64,000 bases of DNA from Symbiodinium natans (Eukaryota; Sar; Dinophyceae; Suessiales; Symbiodiniaceae). Within the stretch, counting starts at the first letter, position 1; the number at the start of each line of letters is the position of its first letter. Of the stretch, positions 10,843 through 64,000 are shown piece after piece. The DNA lies in contig CAJNDS010002484.1 in assembly GCA_905221605.1 (NCBI GenBank), positions 238,188 to 302,187 on the forward strand. Direction: 5' to 3'. Below the pieces are notes generated by a model. That model made no database searches and had not been told where the DNA came from. It saw only the letters and a program-made list of their open reading frames with translations. A program made the translations under genes and the position numbers.

Positions 10843-10965
10843 CCCCAAACCCCACACCCCAAACCCCAAACCCCAAACCCCAAACCCCAAACCCCAAACC
10901 CCGAACCCCGAACCCCGAACCCCAAACCCCAAACCCCAAACCCTAAACCCTAAACCCTTAATCGC
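10843..10965. repeat. Interstitial telomere-like array, CCCCAAA/CCCTAAA
   Basis: Mostly CCCCAAA and CCCCGAA variants, ending in CCCTAAA. It precedes an exon-like island at 11000. Confidence 0.95.
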
Positions 10966-10999
10966 CCAAAAATCCTAAGCCGCCGACATCTGGGGCCAG

Positions 11000-11054
11000 C
11001 AAAGCCTCAGAGTGCGAGGCATCGGGCAAGGCGAGCCCAACTTCAACTTGCCAG
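11000..11054 (+). CDS. Short exon-like island, unknown gene
   Basis: Between an AG at 10998-10999 and a GT at 11055 the plus strand reads KASECEASGKASPTSTCQ without a stop. It sits between a CCCTAAA-type array and a TTTAGGG array, the arrangement seen around better supported exons. No family recognised. Confidence 0.35.
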
Positions 11055-11062
11055 GTGTGGAG

Positions 11063-11142
11063 GGTTTAGGGTTTAGGGTTTAGGGTTCAGGGTTGAGGGT
11101 TTAGGGTTTAGGGTTCAGGGTTTAGGGTTTAGGGTTTAGGGA
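11063..11142. repeat. Interstitial telomere-like array, TTTAGGG
   Basis: About 11 copies with occasional TTCAGGG and TTGAGGG variants. Confidence 0.95.
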
Positions 11143-12669
11143 AGCTTGGGCTTCTGGGTTTAGGGCTTGACTGCTCATGATCTCAGGACCATTTTGCAGG
11201 CATTTGCTGTGAGGGGCCTGCTTTTTACGCATTCGCGGTTTGGAGGTTTTGGCTGCGAGTCCTTATAGAACCGGAAGTCGTGGTTAACGGGATACGGACA
11301 ACTTCTTCAGAAAACGGACTGGGAAGGTGTTCAGATTCAGGATTCCCTCAGGATATCAGTAGAAAAAAGCTGCAACCAAATTCTTAATATCTGCGATCGA
11401 GGCTGCGTACATAAGAATTCCAAGTATCCGCTCACAAGCTTCTTATTTTGAGACTTTAGGGTTTGGTGTTTGGTCGTACAGCAAAGAGAAGTTGTGAAGT
11501 TTTGGCTGTAAAGGAAACAAAGATAAATCTGCTCGCAGTCTTGTCGTGTTCCCACACAAGTCCAAAAAGAAAGAGCCCGATGCGGACTTTGCATTTGGGG
11601 ATTCTGGGTTTTTCTTTGCTTGGGAGAACCAACTCTTTCGTGGGCATCCTTGCCATGGTGCATTGGAGCGACCGCGAGACATACGATTGTTTCGACAAGA
11701 TCGTTGGGGGAGCTTGGTTGCGGCACAATCAACACCCACGTAGTAACAAGGGAAGGAGGTCCCTCTTACGGTACGACGGAAACTCCGAAGGAAGAGGGGA
11801 CATGGGAATGTAGAACAAACATTTTGAGCAAAAGCGGCTTGGTTTTGGGAATCATTGCTTCCCAAAAGCCTCCCACATGTTTCTAATGTGTGAGGGGCTA
11901 TAAATGTGAGTTCCAAAACGTTCGAATATGTAGCTTCTGGGAAACCCTAAACCCTAAACCCTAAACGCTAAACCCTAAACCCCAATCCTTGAATTGGGAA
12001 ACGGGTGTGCGAGATGTGTCTCGCCAACGAGCATGCCATTGTGAAGGGGGGCCCACAAGTGTGAGAACCTTGCATATCAAGAGTACCAAAAGCAGATGCT
12101 CTTGGTTTTGTTGTAGGGAAACTTAAGAAGTATAGATAGGGTGGGCAGGACTACACAAGATTGCACGTAGGGCGGGACACCGCAAGCGGGAATACTGTGA
12201 GCAGATGTTATGATTTCATGCGTGGTCGAGGTTTTTGATTTAACATCTAAGACCTTGCGCTACACACCCCCCACCCCCCAGCCCTCAAAGAAAAACACAA
12301 TTTCAGTTTTTTTTGCAGGGAGGGGGGAGGGTAGAGGATGGTAGAGGTAGATTCTCCCAACGTAAAGAGGTTGGTATGTGCACCTGTTCATCTAAGTCTT
12401 TTGGTTAAGACTGTCAGGTACGCGTCCAAGAGCCTCATGCTAGCTTCTAAACCTTACATATACTGGCAAGGGTTTTCCACTAAAGGATAGGATACCAACA
12501 TATGCACGATGTGAAACATCCAACCCTAAACCCTAAACCCCAAACCCCAAACCCTAAACCCTACACCCTAAACACTAAACCCTAAATCCTATACGTAAGT
12601 AAAGAGCAAGATTCTACTTGAACAAACCAGGCTGTCAGGGCGGCGCACTCTCTGGTTATTGGTCTCGTC
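11143..12669. other. No confident gene
   Basis: Contains small CCCTAAA blocks (11943-11985, 12523-12590). Open frames at 11460-11890 overlap in several frames and none shows a family motif, so I leave them uncalled. Confidence 0.4.
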
Positions 12670-12771
12670 TTGGGATGTCCCCCCTTATACTCACAGTCCT
12701 TAATAAGGAGTATAATTGGGGTTACTATCATCCCTATGAAGGAGTGTTAGTTTCAGGGAGAACATCGCAAG
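12670..12771. mobile_element. Foldback element, family A
   Basis: About 100 bp with imperfect inverted termini, left end TGGGATGTCCCCCCTTATAC and right end ending AACATCGCAA. Other copies: 32321-32515, 41958-42059, 42196-42301, 43840-43940, 57399-57446 (partial), 63297-63377 (truncated) and 63378-63488. MITE-like size and structure; no transposase is seen. Confidence 0.75.
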
Positions 12772-12833
12772 AATTCCAAGGTATGGAGTGCCTGGCATGA
12801 GGTATGTAAGGCTATGGGTTTCGGAGGCTCACT

Positions 12834-12900
12834 ACCCCTAAACCCTAAACCCTAAACCCTAAACCCTAAACCCTAAACCCTAAACCCTAAACCCTAAACC
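12834..12900. repeat. Interstitial telomere-like array, CCCTAAA
   Basis: Nine nearly perfect copies ending 8 bp before an AG acceptor-like site. Confidence 0.95.
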
Positions 12901-12908
12901 TCGGCCAG

Positions 12909-12956
12909 GTGCCGTGGAAGATGCCGACAGGCTTTGGCCCACGCTGCGTGCGCAAA
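12909..12956 (+). CDS. Short exon-like island, unknown gene
   Basis: Follows AG at 12907-12908 and reads AVEDADRLWPTLRAQ up to GT at 12957. Coding-like and directly downstream of a CCCTAAA array. It could be an early exon of the channel gene, but nothing ties it to that family. Confidence 0.35.
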
Positions 12957-13563
12957 GTGTTCTGACTCCCCAAGCTCCGGAATTCGACTTGAGACCCTTG
13001 GCCTTAGCCGTGTCTTGGGCAGGCCGGTGTCGAAGGAAGGCAAGCCACTCAGGGCTTCAGTTTCCATTGTGTGCTGTGGGGTGCAGCTTCTTAACCAACC
13101 TTCAACTCTAAACCCCACATTCTGAAGCCTCAAGCCGCAAACCCCGAAACTCCTAAGCCCTAAGCCCTCTTCCCATAAGCCCCAGGCTGGGCATCGACTC
13201 GGAACTGGGCAGGCTCTGAAAAGTCGAATAGGCAAGGCTCAGACGTCCGCGCCAAACCCAAAGCCTCTCGGATGGCGGTGTTCGAAAACTCGCGTGTGCT
13301 TGATCATGAGGATGCTTAACCATACGACGAGGTACAACGAGAAAGGCCCCTGTTTCGGGTCTTGCAAGCCCTTGTGCCGAGGTCCTGGCGCCGAAAAACA
13401 AATAGCTTGGGGCCAGAACGTCCGGCCCTTTGAAGTCTATCCGCATGTATGGAGGAAGGCAGTTTCTGGCGAGCCGAGCCTCAAAAGACTGTACGCATGG
13501 CGAGCTGTTCGAACAGCGGTAGGGGGCTTTGAGGGGCAAGGGGCATGTAGTCCGACACTGCAG

Positions 13564-62450: not shown

Positions 62451-62491
<41 letters not shown>

Positions 62492-62580
62492 TGCTATATA
62501 TATATATATATAAACCTACTACAAAGAAGTAGTATTATGAAGGAGTAAATAGCCCAAGAAAGGTACGAGCTCCAAAAGAT
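61619..62580. other. No confident gene; (TA)n at 62455-62510
   Basis: Poly-G near 61829-61842 and an AT microsatellite. No coding family recognised. Confidence 0.5.
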
Positions 62581-62978
62581 GCCAATGGCACCACAGCGGG
62601 TAGCTCAGCCTTTGGCAGCAGCAGCTCTGCCGATTTTTTTTGCGAGCAAGATTCAGCATGTTGGGGTTTTGGGGTTTGGGGTTTAGGGTTTAGGGTTTAG
62701 GGTTTAGGGTTCAGGGCATTTTGGGGTTTGGTGGGGTTTCCGGGTTCGAAGTGTATGAGCTGCCCGAACCCAAACAGCTGGCCTCCAAAGAGTGCAGCGC
62801 CCGAATGCACTGTGAACGCCGAAACCTGAGCTCACCCTTGACCGCCCTCCAGCAAACCCCTCCAGAAAACCTCAGCCCAAGAGCCCAAAATCCTCGACCC
62901 CCCCCCTTCAAGCCCTAAACCCTAATCCTTAAGCCCAAAAACAGATCCTTATGCCCTGTGCAACAAACTTGCAGCCAA

Positions 62979-63050
62979 GCGCGAGCCAGTCTCGGATCCA
63001 CCCGGCGCGTCCTGCGGGACCGTGTGGCCGTGCTGGCGCTTCTGCTGCAG
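62979..63050 (+). CDS. Exon-like island, helical, unknown gene
   Basis: Reads ARASLGSTRRVLRDRVAVLA then LLLQ to a GC donor at 63051. The acceptor is either AG at 62978 or 62988. TTTAGGG follows at 63066-63110. Confidence 0.45.
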
Positions 63051-63296
63051 GCCTCTTCTTGGAGGTTTAGGGCGTTTAGGGTGTAGGGTTTAGGGTTTAG
63101 GGTTTAGGGTTGTGTGTGTGTGTGCGCGAGATCTTGTTGTGCTCTTGCAACCTAAGGGAGTGAGGTCCTTGGAGGACTTGCGGTGGGTGCAGTTCGGGTT
63201 TACGGCTCGAGGAAGTCCGGACGAACTCACGTCGGGCTTGGCTTCGGTTGGACTGGACCTGGGGCTCGGCTGGGACTGTGGCTTTAAAGTTTAAGG

Positions 63297-63488
63297 TTGG
63301 GATGTTCCCCCTTATACTAACAGACTATAACAGACTAACAGTCCTTAATCGTACTCCCTATAAAAATCCCTATTAAGGTTGGGATGTTCCCCCTTATACT
63401 AACAGGCTATAGCAGACTAACAGTCCTCAATCGTACTTTTTATTGTAATCCCGATGAAGGGCTGTTAGTATTGGGGGGAAGATCCCAA
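63297..63488. mobile_element. Two family A foldback elements in tandem, first truncated
   Basis: 63297-63377 lacks its right end; 63378-63488 is complete and ends GAAGATCCCAAG. Both begin TTGGGATGTTCCCCCTTATA. Confidence 0.8.
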
Positions 63489-63602
63489 GTTGAAGGTGTA
63501 AACCGTGTGCCGCCAGATGAAGTCTTCCGGCGCTTTGCCAATATGCTAGGCCAAGCAAAGTCTTACACTTGCGAAGTCTCGGGCTCTGAGCCCCCAACCC
63601 TA

Positions 63603-63785
63603 AAACCTAAACCCTAAACCCTAAACCCTAAACCCTAAACCCTAAACCCTAAACCCTAAACCCTAAACCCTAAACCCTCAACCCTAAACCCTAAACCCTA
63701 AACCCTAAACCCTAAACCCTAAACCCTAACCCTAAACCCGAAACCCTAAACCCGAAACGTTAAACCCTAAACCCTAAACCCCTAA
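63603..63785. repeat. Interstitial telomere-like array, CCCTAAA
   Basis: About 25 units with CCCGAAA variants near the end. Confidence 0.98.
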
Positions 63786-63832
63786 ATCTTCAACCCTAAG
63801 CCCCCCAAAGCCCACGGCCCACCTCCGCAAAG

Positions 63833-63895
63833 CCGGAAGAGGCCTTGGCCGACCTGCGGCTTGGCATGGAGACCAGGGGGGCGGAGGCGCTGAAA
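63833..63895 (+). CDS. Exon-like island, helical, unknown gene
   Basis: AG at 63831-63832. Reads PEEALADLRLGMETRGAEAL then K. Same flanks as other islands: CCCTAAA upstream, TTTAGGG (63899-63938) downstream. Probably the same gene as the islands at 60693 and 61387. Confidence 0.5.
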
Positions 63896-64000
63896 TGCTC
63901 AGGGTTTAGGGTTTAGGGTTTAGGGTTTAGGGTTTAGTCAATTTCCGGTTTTCTGGTGGATAGTTCAGCCCACCGGTTCGTACTTTCAGAGATGCAGGCG

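Follow-up and report, generated by a model that had tools for sequence, protein, structure and literature searches.

Telomere-type repeat arrays in a fixed orientation around exon-like islands at a dinoflagellate-like nuclear locus

The telomeres of dinoflagellates are built from the unit TTTAGGG (PMC11453091), and published work on these organisms describes such telomeres together with inverted-repeat introners and long introns (PMC11453091, PMC7789003, PMC10666404, PMC10522408, PMC9860276). According to Table 2 of PMC10666404, their introns begin with GT, GC or GA. Interstitial telomere signals were reported to be rare in Karenia by fluorescence in situ hybridization (PMC6395649); arrays as short as those considered below would probably escape that method. 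Described here is a single window of 64,000 nt from Symbiodinium natans (contig CAJNDS010002484.1, positions 238,188 to 302,187), in which one 53-kb locus contains short predicted exons bracketed by CCCTAAA and TTTAGGG repeats. All exons discussed are predictions. The window is dinoflagellate-like nuclear DNA, given that its protein relatives lie in Symbiodinium, Durusdinium and Effrenium and that its repeat is the TTTAGGG telomere unit. Indeed, among the 120 of 218 matches listed, the relatives from named organisms belong to these three genera, with the addition of one distant haptophyte, and both relatives in named dinoflagellates and unusual GC donors, by which dinoflagellate nuclear genes are recognized, were found. 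No description of telomere units oriented around exons or splice sites was encountered in the open-access literature searched, in keeping with the remark in the first-pass annotation that no such system is known to have been described.

The window contains 232 exact TTTAGGG and 501 exact CCCTAAA units (733 in total), referred to below as T and C units. These are distributed over 122 arrays when single units are included, 84 of which have at least two units and the longest of which has 53 copies. As tandem telomere units at non-terminal places, they constitute interstitial telomeric sequences. The first-pass annotation proposed that exon-like islands are preceded by CCCTAAA and followed by TTTAGGG, and the orientation pattern is confirmed as real, strong and, at this one locus, unexpected. 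Upon inspection of the sequence, all 15 islands listed in its favor (11000, 16052, 25603, 27650, 29516, 35703, 36224, 39015, 43690, 51055, 56204, 60693, 61387, 62979 and 63833) carry CCCTAAA before and TTTAGGG after, with only a single unit downstream of 35703 and upstream of 62979. The exceptions at 31377, 33024 and 57640, and the stretch at 62740, are also as originally described. Outside that list, the exons at 32673, 45395 and 45978 fit the pattern, and four do not: 20104 is followed by CCCTAAA, 39361 is followed by a single CCCTAAA, and both 51355 and 54605 have TTTAGGG upstream. The individual islands and arrays are as follows, with "finder" referring to the exon finder introduced below.

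10941..11165 (+), (CCCTAAA)2 with CCCCAAA variants, island 10979-11053 (not called by the finder), (TTTAGGG)9
15888..16147 (+), (CCCTAAA)8, island 16051-16107 (not called by the finder; 83% duplicate of 15701-15758), (TTTAGGG)2
17470..17705 (+), (CCCTAAA)16 upstream only, cation channel exon 17643-17705
18821..19231 (+), contrast case, intron 18898-19156 without arrays between two cation channel exons
20104..20296 (+), misfit, EF-hand exon 20104-20198 followed by (CCCTAAA)3
21922..22078 (+), (CCCTAAA)4 upstream of EF-hand exon 22003-22078
25511..25735 (+), (CCCTAAA)11, exon-like 25597-25672, (TTTAGGG)8 giving the predicted GT donor; no domain support
27567..27781 (+), (CCCTAAA)6, exon-like ~27649-27722, (TTTAGGG)5; no domain support
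29428..29734 (+), (CCCTAAA)6, exon-like ~29508-29602, (TTTAGGG)11; no domain support
31272..31574 (+), misfit on the downstream side, (CCCTAAA)9, exon-like ~31376-31450, (CCCTAAA)12
32546..32794 (+), (CCCTAAA)14, exon-like 32673-32721, (TTTAGGG)9; fits, outside the original list
35332..35814 (+), ends of intron 35292-35702 with (TTTAGGG)4 and (CCCTAAA)12, then exon-like 35703-35783 and a single TTTAGGG
36106..36332 (+), (CCCTAAA)10, exon-like ~36222-36283, (TTTAGGG)5
38696..39152 (+), (CCCTAAA)35, exon-like ~39013-39085, (TTTAGGG)4
43600..43830 (+), (CCCTAAA)6 inside a CCCCAAA array, exon-like ~43690-43742 (not called by the finder), (TTTAGGG)6
45302..45539 (+), (CCCTAAA)8, exon-like 45395-45453, (TTTAGGG)3; fits, outside the original list
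45978..46160 (+), ankyrin exon 45978-46056, (TTTAGGG)7 downstream, predicted acceptor at the end of the MITE-like copy 45837-45977 (see below)
50951..51499 (+), (CCCTAAA)5, ankyrin exon ~51020-51107, (TTTAGGG)9, ankyrin exon 51355-51423, (TTTAGGG)5
55854..56402 (+), (CCCTAAA)26 with CCCTAAAA variants, ankyrin exon ~56202-56275, (TTTAGGG)8
57506..57810 (+), head-to-head (TTTAGGG)15, ~107 nt, (CCCTAAA)11; 57640 doubtful as an exon (not called by the finder)
60490..60779 (+), (CCCTAAA)18, exon-like 60693-60751, (TTTAGGG)2; no domain support
60939..61609 (+), (CCCTAAA)41, exon-like ~61380-61446, (TTTAGGG)18; no domain support
62913..63109 (+), single CCCTAAA, exon-like ~62972-63049, (TTTAGGG)5; no domain support
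63598..63932 (+), (CCCTAAA)21, exon-like ~63833-63902, (TTTAGGG)4; no domain support

The arrays reveal the same order when considered without exons. For adjacent arrays separated by 60-200 nt, a C array followed by a T array occurs 25 times versus 11 times for the reverse (label permutation p = 0.0005), and the excess is 19 versus 6 for arrays of at least two copies (p = 0.0001) and 14 versus 4 for those of at least three (p = 0.001). At spacings of 201-500 nt it is reversed, with 2 C-then-T versus 9 T-then-C pairs, which is what exons in the C-to-T gaps would produce.

Exons were also called by an exon finder combining a codon model with a splice-site model, which was trained on 875 codons from the calpain and ankyrin gene exons. 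None of the nine training exons has an array of at least two units within 300 nt, and a lone TTTAGGG unit lies within 300 nt of three of them at once. Beyond 10 kb on the + strand, and with one low-complexity exon removed, it yielded 58, 42 and 22 exons at score cut-offs of 0, 1.5 and 4, respectively. Ten of the 15 originally listed islands were recovered at a score of at least 1.5 and 12 at a score above 0; those at 11000, 16052 and 43690 were missed. Fitting flanks outnumbered opposite ones in all 12 finder settings (label-permutation p 0.0005 to 0.035), with counts within 60 nt, single units included, of 35 versus 5, 28 versus 5 and 12 versus 3. In a circular-shift test on the 42 exons beyond 10.8 kb with scores of at least 1.5, and with flanks taken within 80 nt, CCCTAAA was found upstream of 15 (shifted mean 4.8), TTTAGGG downstream of 16 (mean 3.5), and both together around 11 (mean 1.0). 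The opposite orientation occurred at the level of chance in the same exons, with TTTAGGG upstream of four (3.6) and CCCTAAA downstream of three (4.7). Since TTTAGGG arrays offer GT and AG sites to the finder, it was rerun on 60 versions of the window in which every array had been randomly flipped or left as it was. Fitting flanks then averaged 18.5, with a maximum of 24, and opposite flanks averaged 20.2, as compared to 31 and 7 in the unflipped window; flipping abolishes the excess, and the finder therefore has no built-in orientation bias. Permutation, circular shifting and array flipping all speak against chance, and the early judgment that the orientation is far from random holds.

The multi-exon genes of the window are encoded on its + strand, and the islands are, as first supposed, coding-like, some of them lying in recognizable multi-exon genes with arrays at the ends of the long introns. 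Calpain protease domains (Pfam PF00648, E 1.6e-16 and 1.2e-23) are located at 2482-3386. Thirteen short exons from 13551 to 22078, when joined in order, produce EF-hand matches (E 9.7e-9) and a cation-channel PF00520 match of E 9.5e-5 whose 22.1 bits fall below the cut-off of 25. These joined exons also match voltage-gated sodium channel structures, the best being 4bgn (E 1.9e-5), and the introns of this channel gene include GC-AG ones. Ankyrin repeats were detected with Pfam in the joined exons 45978, 51020 and 51355, in 55063-55524 joined to 56202-56275, and in 59693-60130. The exon at 53959-54510 matched no Pfam family and has relatives in ENA that are 76% identical across ~85% of its length. 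The intron ends that could be resolved have GT, GC or GA donors and AG acceptors, and the exons are short. The joined exon-like peptides of 25597-33139, 60693-63902 and 35237-36283 matched no Pfam family above its cut-off, and these islands are coding-like by codon use only. Two exon-like segments of the channel gene, 15701-15758 and 16045-16102, are tandem copies with 83% identity, the second corresponding to the island at 16052.

Exons supported by a domain or an alignment lean, taken alone, to the same orientation. Seventeen such exons gave 9 fitting versus 1 opposite flank within 60 nt (p 0.011), 10 versus 3 within 100 nt (p 0.046), and 11 versus 3 within 120 nt (p 0.029). With 56202 removed, the remaining 16 gave 7 versus 1 (p 0.035), 8 versus 3 (p 0.11), and 9 versus 3 (p 0.07) at the same three distances. 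Only 45978, 51020 and 56202 fit on both sides within 100 nt, and nine of the 17 lack any unit at that distance. A wider list of 21 exons, for four of which (15479, 20919, 35703 and 35937) coverage by a domain or an alignment is not clear, gave 10 versus 1, 12 versus 3, and 13 versus 4 within 60, 100 and 120 nt.

For the analysis of array placement, 42 introns were curated, or 40 once two gene breaks were added. The curated exon edges were set in part by reading frame and are accurate to a few bases only, several junctions in the 42-intron list deviate from G[TCA] or AG, and some exons between arrays were first noticed because of those arrays. In the 24 introns of at least 300 nt, the first 100 nt contain 17 T and 3 C arrays, and the last 100 nt contain no T and 19 C arrays. 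Their interiors (23 T, 38 C) display no significant orientation bias in either half, the counts being 15 T and 21 C in the 5' half and 8 T and 17 C in the 3' half. Arrays are denser at the ends of long introns than in the interiors (8.12 versus 1.97 per kb) and they are longer there, with median copy numbers of 4 versus 1 for T arrays (p 0.0013) and 6 versus 2 for C arrays (p 0.0019). The T array begins 1-49 nt after the donor, and the C array lies 6-81 nt from the acceptor (12-55 nt in 14 of 17 introns). Around 42 curated exons beyond 10.8 kb, both expected arrays are found within 100 nt in 16 cases, only the C array in 5, only the T array in 5, and neither in 16. The median length is 735 nt for introns carrying an array at an expected end, six of these 24 being shorter than 300 nt, versus 213.5 nt for those without. 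The first-pass annotation went further and suggested that the repeats define introns; this cannot be maintained, for 16 of the 40 modeled introns have neither array and none of the 16 introns under 300 nt has both. A general G/T to C/A skew along introns was considered as the cause and was ruled out by masking the exact units, which lowers the skew beside exons, to between about one third and one half over the 80 nt that follow them. For the 16 exons that have no unit within 300 nt the skew is small, with G-C values of +0.09 at 5-40 nt downstream and of ~0 at 40-120 nt.

The explanation we favor, albeit tentatively, is that telomere-type repeats residing within long introns have been sorted by strand and by place through splicing. 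Acceptors of the AGG type make up 79.7-97.1% of the total in the six dinoflagellate genomes other than Amoebophrya in Table 2 of PMC10666404 and 56.5% in Amoebophrya. Given this predominance of AG followed by G, every TTTAGGG unit would be a ready-made acceptor (TTTAG/GG). T arrays upstream of true acceptors would thus be lost because they would create false ones, and such a filter would account for the absence of T arrays before the acceptors of long introns. A C array is free of AG, GT, GC and GA, and would be tolerated directly before an acceptor. The CTAAA within each of its units resembles the branch point consensus. For these reasons it could sit, and grow, at that position; a branch-point role is plausible. 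A T array following a donor would be harmless because its AGs precede the branch point, and it can itself provide a GT donor, as predicted for the exons at 25597 and 32673. Slippage or telomerase could then lengthen the C arrays upstream of exons and the T arrays downstream. Where a C array is present near the acceptor, as it is in 17 long introns, the last 100 nt contain 0.47 AGG per 100 nt, versus 1.57 in the seven long introns without, 2.46 in the window and 7.00 in the first 100 nt of the same 17 introns; for AG in the last 100 nt, the values with and without a C array are 2.47 and 7.86. Sorting through splicing also leaves room for introns that have only one of the two end arrays, and these exist; it likewise agrees with the coupling of intron ends not being seen beyond 25 kb, albeit at low power.

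Several observations weigh against this explanation. A filter alone does not account for the fourfold excess of arrays at both intron ends, nor for the rarity of C arrays after donors (3 of 20 arrays), where they should be neutral. Either a benefit to splicing or an introner-like origin must therefore be added, and the denser end arrays may reflect the former or may mean that some introns were born from insertions. UAGGG and G runs have a role as splicing enhancers. UAGGGA is listed in PMC3640928 among sequences resembling high-affinity hnRNP A1 sites. T units upstream of the finder exons, moreover, are not depleted but occur at chance (4 versus 3.6 expected). Most of the doubly flanked islands lack domain support, which extends, together with alignment support, to only 17 exons (and to only those at 51055 and 56204 among the 15 originally listed). 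Finally, open reading frames called on the contigs of relatives stop inside arrays with characteristic tails. In a set of 133 proteins, which includes one from the window itself, two from relatives (P0013 and P0117) end in ...TLNPKP or ...SLNPKP. These tails correspond to CCCTAAA directly after a conserved exon, and none of the 133 proteins has a C-terminal tail of the TTTAGGG type. C-termini reveal only arrays that touch an exon, and the sample is too small for a test, yet the tails suggest that telomere units abut exons in other genomes as well, and that the orientation after donors can be opposite there. Scans with the array-island-array pattern found no match among the viral contigs searched in either orientation, protein-guided scans for other dinoflagellate DNA found no relatives, and array scans matched IMG/VR and bacterial records.

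A less probable source of the pattern, though one to be taken seriously, is that the long introns are inserted elements, or their remains, with telomere-type terminal inverted repeats. Inverted repeats read identically from both ends, so that insertion in any direction would leave TTTAGGG past the upstream exon piece and CCCTAAA ahead of the downstream one, and exon-edge position, orientation and pairing would be explained in one step, as would the excess of arrays at intron ends. Both ends of 13 of the 24 long introns bear arrays, and over the window as a whole the two ends are coupled (p 0.006). Dinoflagellate introners bearing inverted repeats have been reported (PMC7789003, PMC10666404), and an inverted-repeat family is present in the window, with one copy stopping precisely at a predicted acceptor. 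The array-bearing introns, however, have no end-to-end similarity, sharing only scattered stretches of ~35-130 nt resembling miniature inverted-repeat transposable elements (MITEs) when matches of at least 35 nt were considered and the large tandem repeat at 48700-50614 was excluded. The introner signature given in PMC7789003 and PMC10666404, inverted repeats of 8-20 nt lying no more than 30 nt from each intron end, was found in only 1 of the 25 introns covered, out of 42 modeled (a repeat of 13 nt); within 100 nt of the ends, a telomeric inverted repeat of 13-20 nt occurs in 8 of the 25. The spacers between splice sites and arrays (1-49 nt at the donor, 6-81 nt at the acceptor) have no evident common sequence by eye, and no coupling of the intron ends was seen beyond 25 kb. 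Introners are also defined by a direct repeat of 3-5 nt across the exon borders; short matches are present at most borders here, but the AGG/CAGG-type splice consensus yields such matches by itself, and several borders are uncertain by a few bases. It is quite unlikely that the arrays arose by telomerase healing, in which breaks near exon edges would be capped by TTTAGGG on both sides and rejoined, with the arrays later separated. Such healing would yield the observed orientation, short-spaced head-to-head pairs are present at 57506-57810 and 44457-44544, and in mammals telomerase is reported to make insertions at breaks (PMC2246262, PMC7215372), but there is no reason for breaks beside exons, and introns bearing both arrays measure 0.4-5 kb. 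That the pattern is due to chance or to selective reading, with islands that are not exons, is very improbable indeed. The repeats are very common in the window, the exons are predicted, and the joined peptides of 25597-33139 and 60693-63902 match no Pfam family; nevertheless, all three randomization controls reject chance and the domain-supported exons lean the same way.

The first-pass annotation had suggested that the complementary arrays of one intron pair and thereby join its splice sites. The complementarity itself is borne out, for 13 of the 24 long introns have a T array at the 5' end and a C array at the 3' end; pairing as the feature that matters is not, and we regard it as improbable. 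In its favor, 9 of the 24 long introns have duplexes between their first and last 120 nt that go beyond those of dinucleotide shuffles (z < -5), introns whose ends pair are described in Amoebophrya (PMC7789003), and the introns with the expected arrays are the longer ones. Yet each array has its nearer complementary partner on the far side of the exon, not of the intron: the C-to-T gap is mostly 79-194 nt over exons and 411-4963 nt over the introns with both arrays, so that during transcription a C array would meet the T array past the same exon first. Several introns have an array at one end only. Counted as both arrays, T only, C only and neither, the 40 introns divide into 13, 5, 6 and 16 (Fisher p 0.006), the 24 long introns into 13, 1, 4 and 6 (p 0.009), and the 42-intron list into 13, 6, 6 and 17 (p 0.007). 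Beyond 25 kb the coupling was not seen, either in all introns (12, 5, 4 and 3; p 0.43) or in the long ones (12, 1, 3 and 0; p 1.0), both with low power, and the window-wide coupling may only reflect the scarcity of arrays in the channel gene. In animals, inverted repeats flanking an exon favor exon skipping or circular RNAs, and the arrays on either side of one exon could conceivably act likewise by pairing with each other, a proposal we consider no more probable than end pairing. For this model 39 exons of up to ~150 nt were folded with 120 nt on each side and compared to 15 mononucleotide shuffles each. The mean number of predicted cross-exon pairs was 67.5 for doubly flanked exons (n=16), 17.0 with the C array only (5), 24.6 with the T array only (5) and 22.5 with neither (13). 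At least 50 such pairs were predicted for 12 of 16 doubly flanked versus 1 of 13 unflanked exons, the contrast weakening to 15 of 16 versus 8 of 13 at the laxer threshold of 20. Minimum free energy z scores lay between -3.8 and -25.5 for all but one of the 16 doubly flanked exons (+0.9 for that one), and none of the 13 unflanked exons fell below -2.5. In addition, beyond 25 kb an upstream C array and a downstream T array co-occur, with both present at 16 of the 28 curated exons there (p 0.003), these exons having been chosen in part by eye. Looping would, on the other hand, hamper the inclusion of exons that the genes require, and the folds are predictions for isolated 300-nt pieces against mononucleotide shuffles only. 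The geometry of the exon loop and the lack of coupling in the repeat-rich part weaken the mechanism first proposed, in which pairing would bridge the splice sites. Sorting imposed by splicing in long introns thus remains the most economical reading, with an introner-like contribution possible.

If the pattern extended across the genome, telomere repeats might serve as a portable splicing signal, with the C strand on the acceptor side and the G strand on the donor side of long introns. Small exons would be folded into hairpin loops that steer inclusion, skipping or circularization, and new introns would be recruited by seeding or extending repeats at their ends. This broader proposal is speculative, and we think it rather unlikely. 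A genome-wide pattern would link the gain and splicing of long introns with non-canonical donors in dinoflagellates to the spread of internal telomere repeats. The pattern leaves a countable signature, namely the strand on which the units lie when they are within 100 nt of a splice site, and predicts hairpin exons that may be skipped or circularized.

Other repeats are present in the window. The MITE-like family has inverted ends, CATGAACCTCCAAG, with 30 matches at up to three mismatches versus 6.65 expected; these include 45837-45977, 23792-23934, 28585-28598, 43096-43109 and 20078-20091. The first of these terminates precisely at the acceptor predicted for exon 45978, and another copy seems to start near the donor of exon 42929, so the family may behave like an introner. 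Within the predicted 153-nt intron 35784-35936, residues 35817-35916 are 75% similar to the MITE-like stretch 28493-28582. That the introns are copies of one transposable element is not apparent within the 64 kb, where only scattered short repeats are shared. Two candidate seed motifs for the arrays were likewise set aside as too weak: TTGGAGG, suggested by the MITE-like ends, occurs at 3 of 92 leading and 1 of 92 trailing array edges (0.7 expected), and GGAGGGTT, which is nearly a telomere unit, at 5 leading and no trailing edges (0.3 expected). A second dispersed family of ~80 bp is represented at 12669-12751, 32320-32393, 42216-42302 and 43864-43941. The tandem repeat at 48700-50614 has a 452-bp unit with nested copies and no confident exons. 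Long simple repeats of the GTGTGTCT type and of GTC are found in the non-exon stretches 58920-59270 and 21372-21690. The longest telomere-type array, with 53 CCCTAAA copies at 48071-48458, is separated by at least ~80 nt from the predicted exon closest to it, 47925-47991, which is itself doubtful.

In comparison with known systems, the arrays resemble interstitial telomeric sequences in being tandem telomere units off chromosome ends with variant units at their edges, and differ from those described in the open-access literature searched by their fixed orientation to splice sites. As with the flanks of circularized exons in animals, both introns next to an exon carry complementary repeats; here, however, they are telomere units, and the resemblance lies in the predicted pairing. 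With the introners of Amoebophrya, Prorocentrum cordatum and Polarella they have in common inverted repeats at intron ends that could pair (PMC7789003, PMC10666404). Unlike introners, the repeats are telomere-unit arrays of very unequal length (1-41 copies) that are usually positioned ~10-80 nt inside introns, which themselves lack end-to-end similarity. The introns have the donors, acceptors and short neighboring exons of ordinary dinoflagellate spliceosomal introns, from which they are distinguished by the arrays at the ends of many of the long ones.

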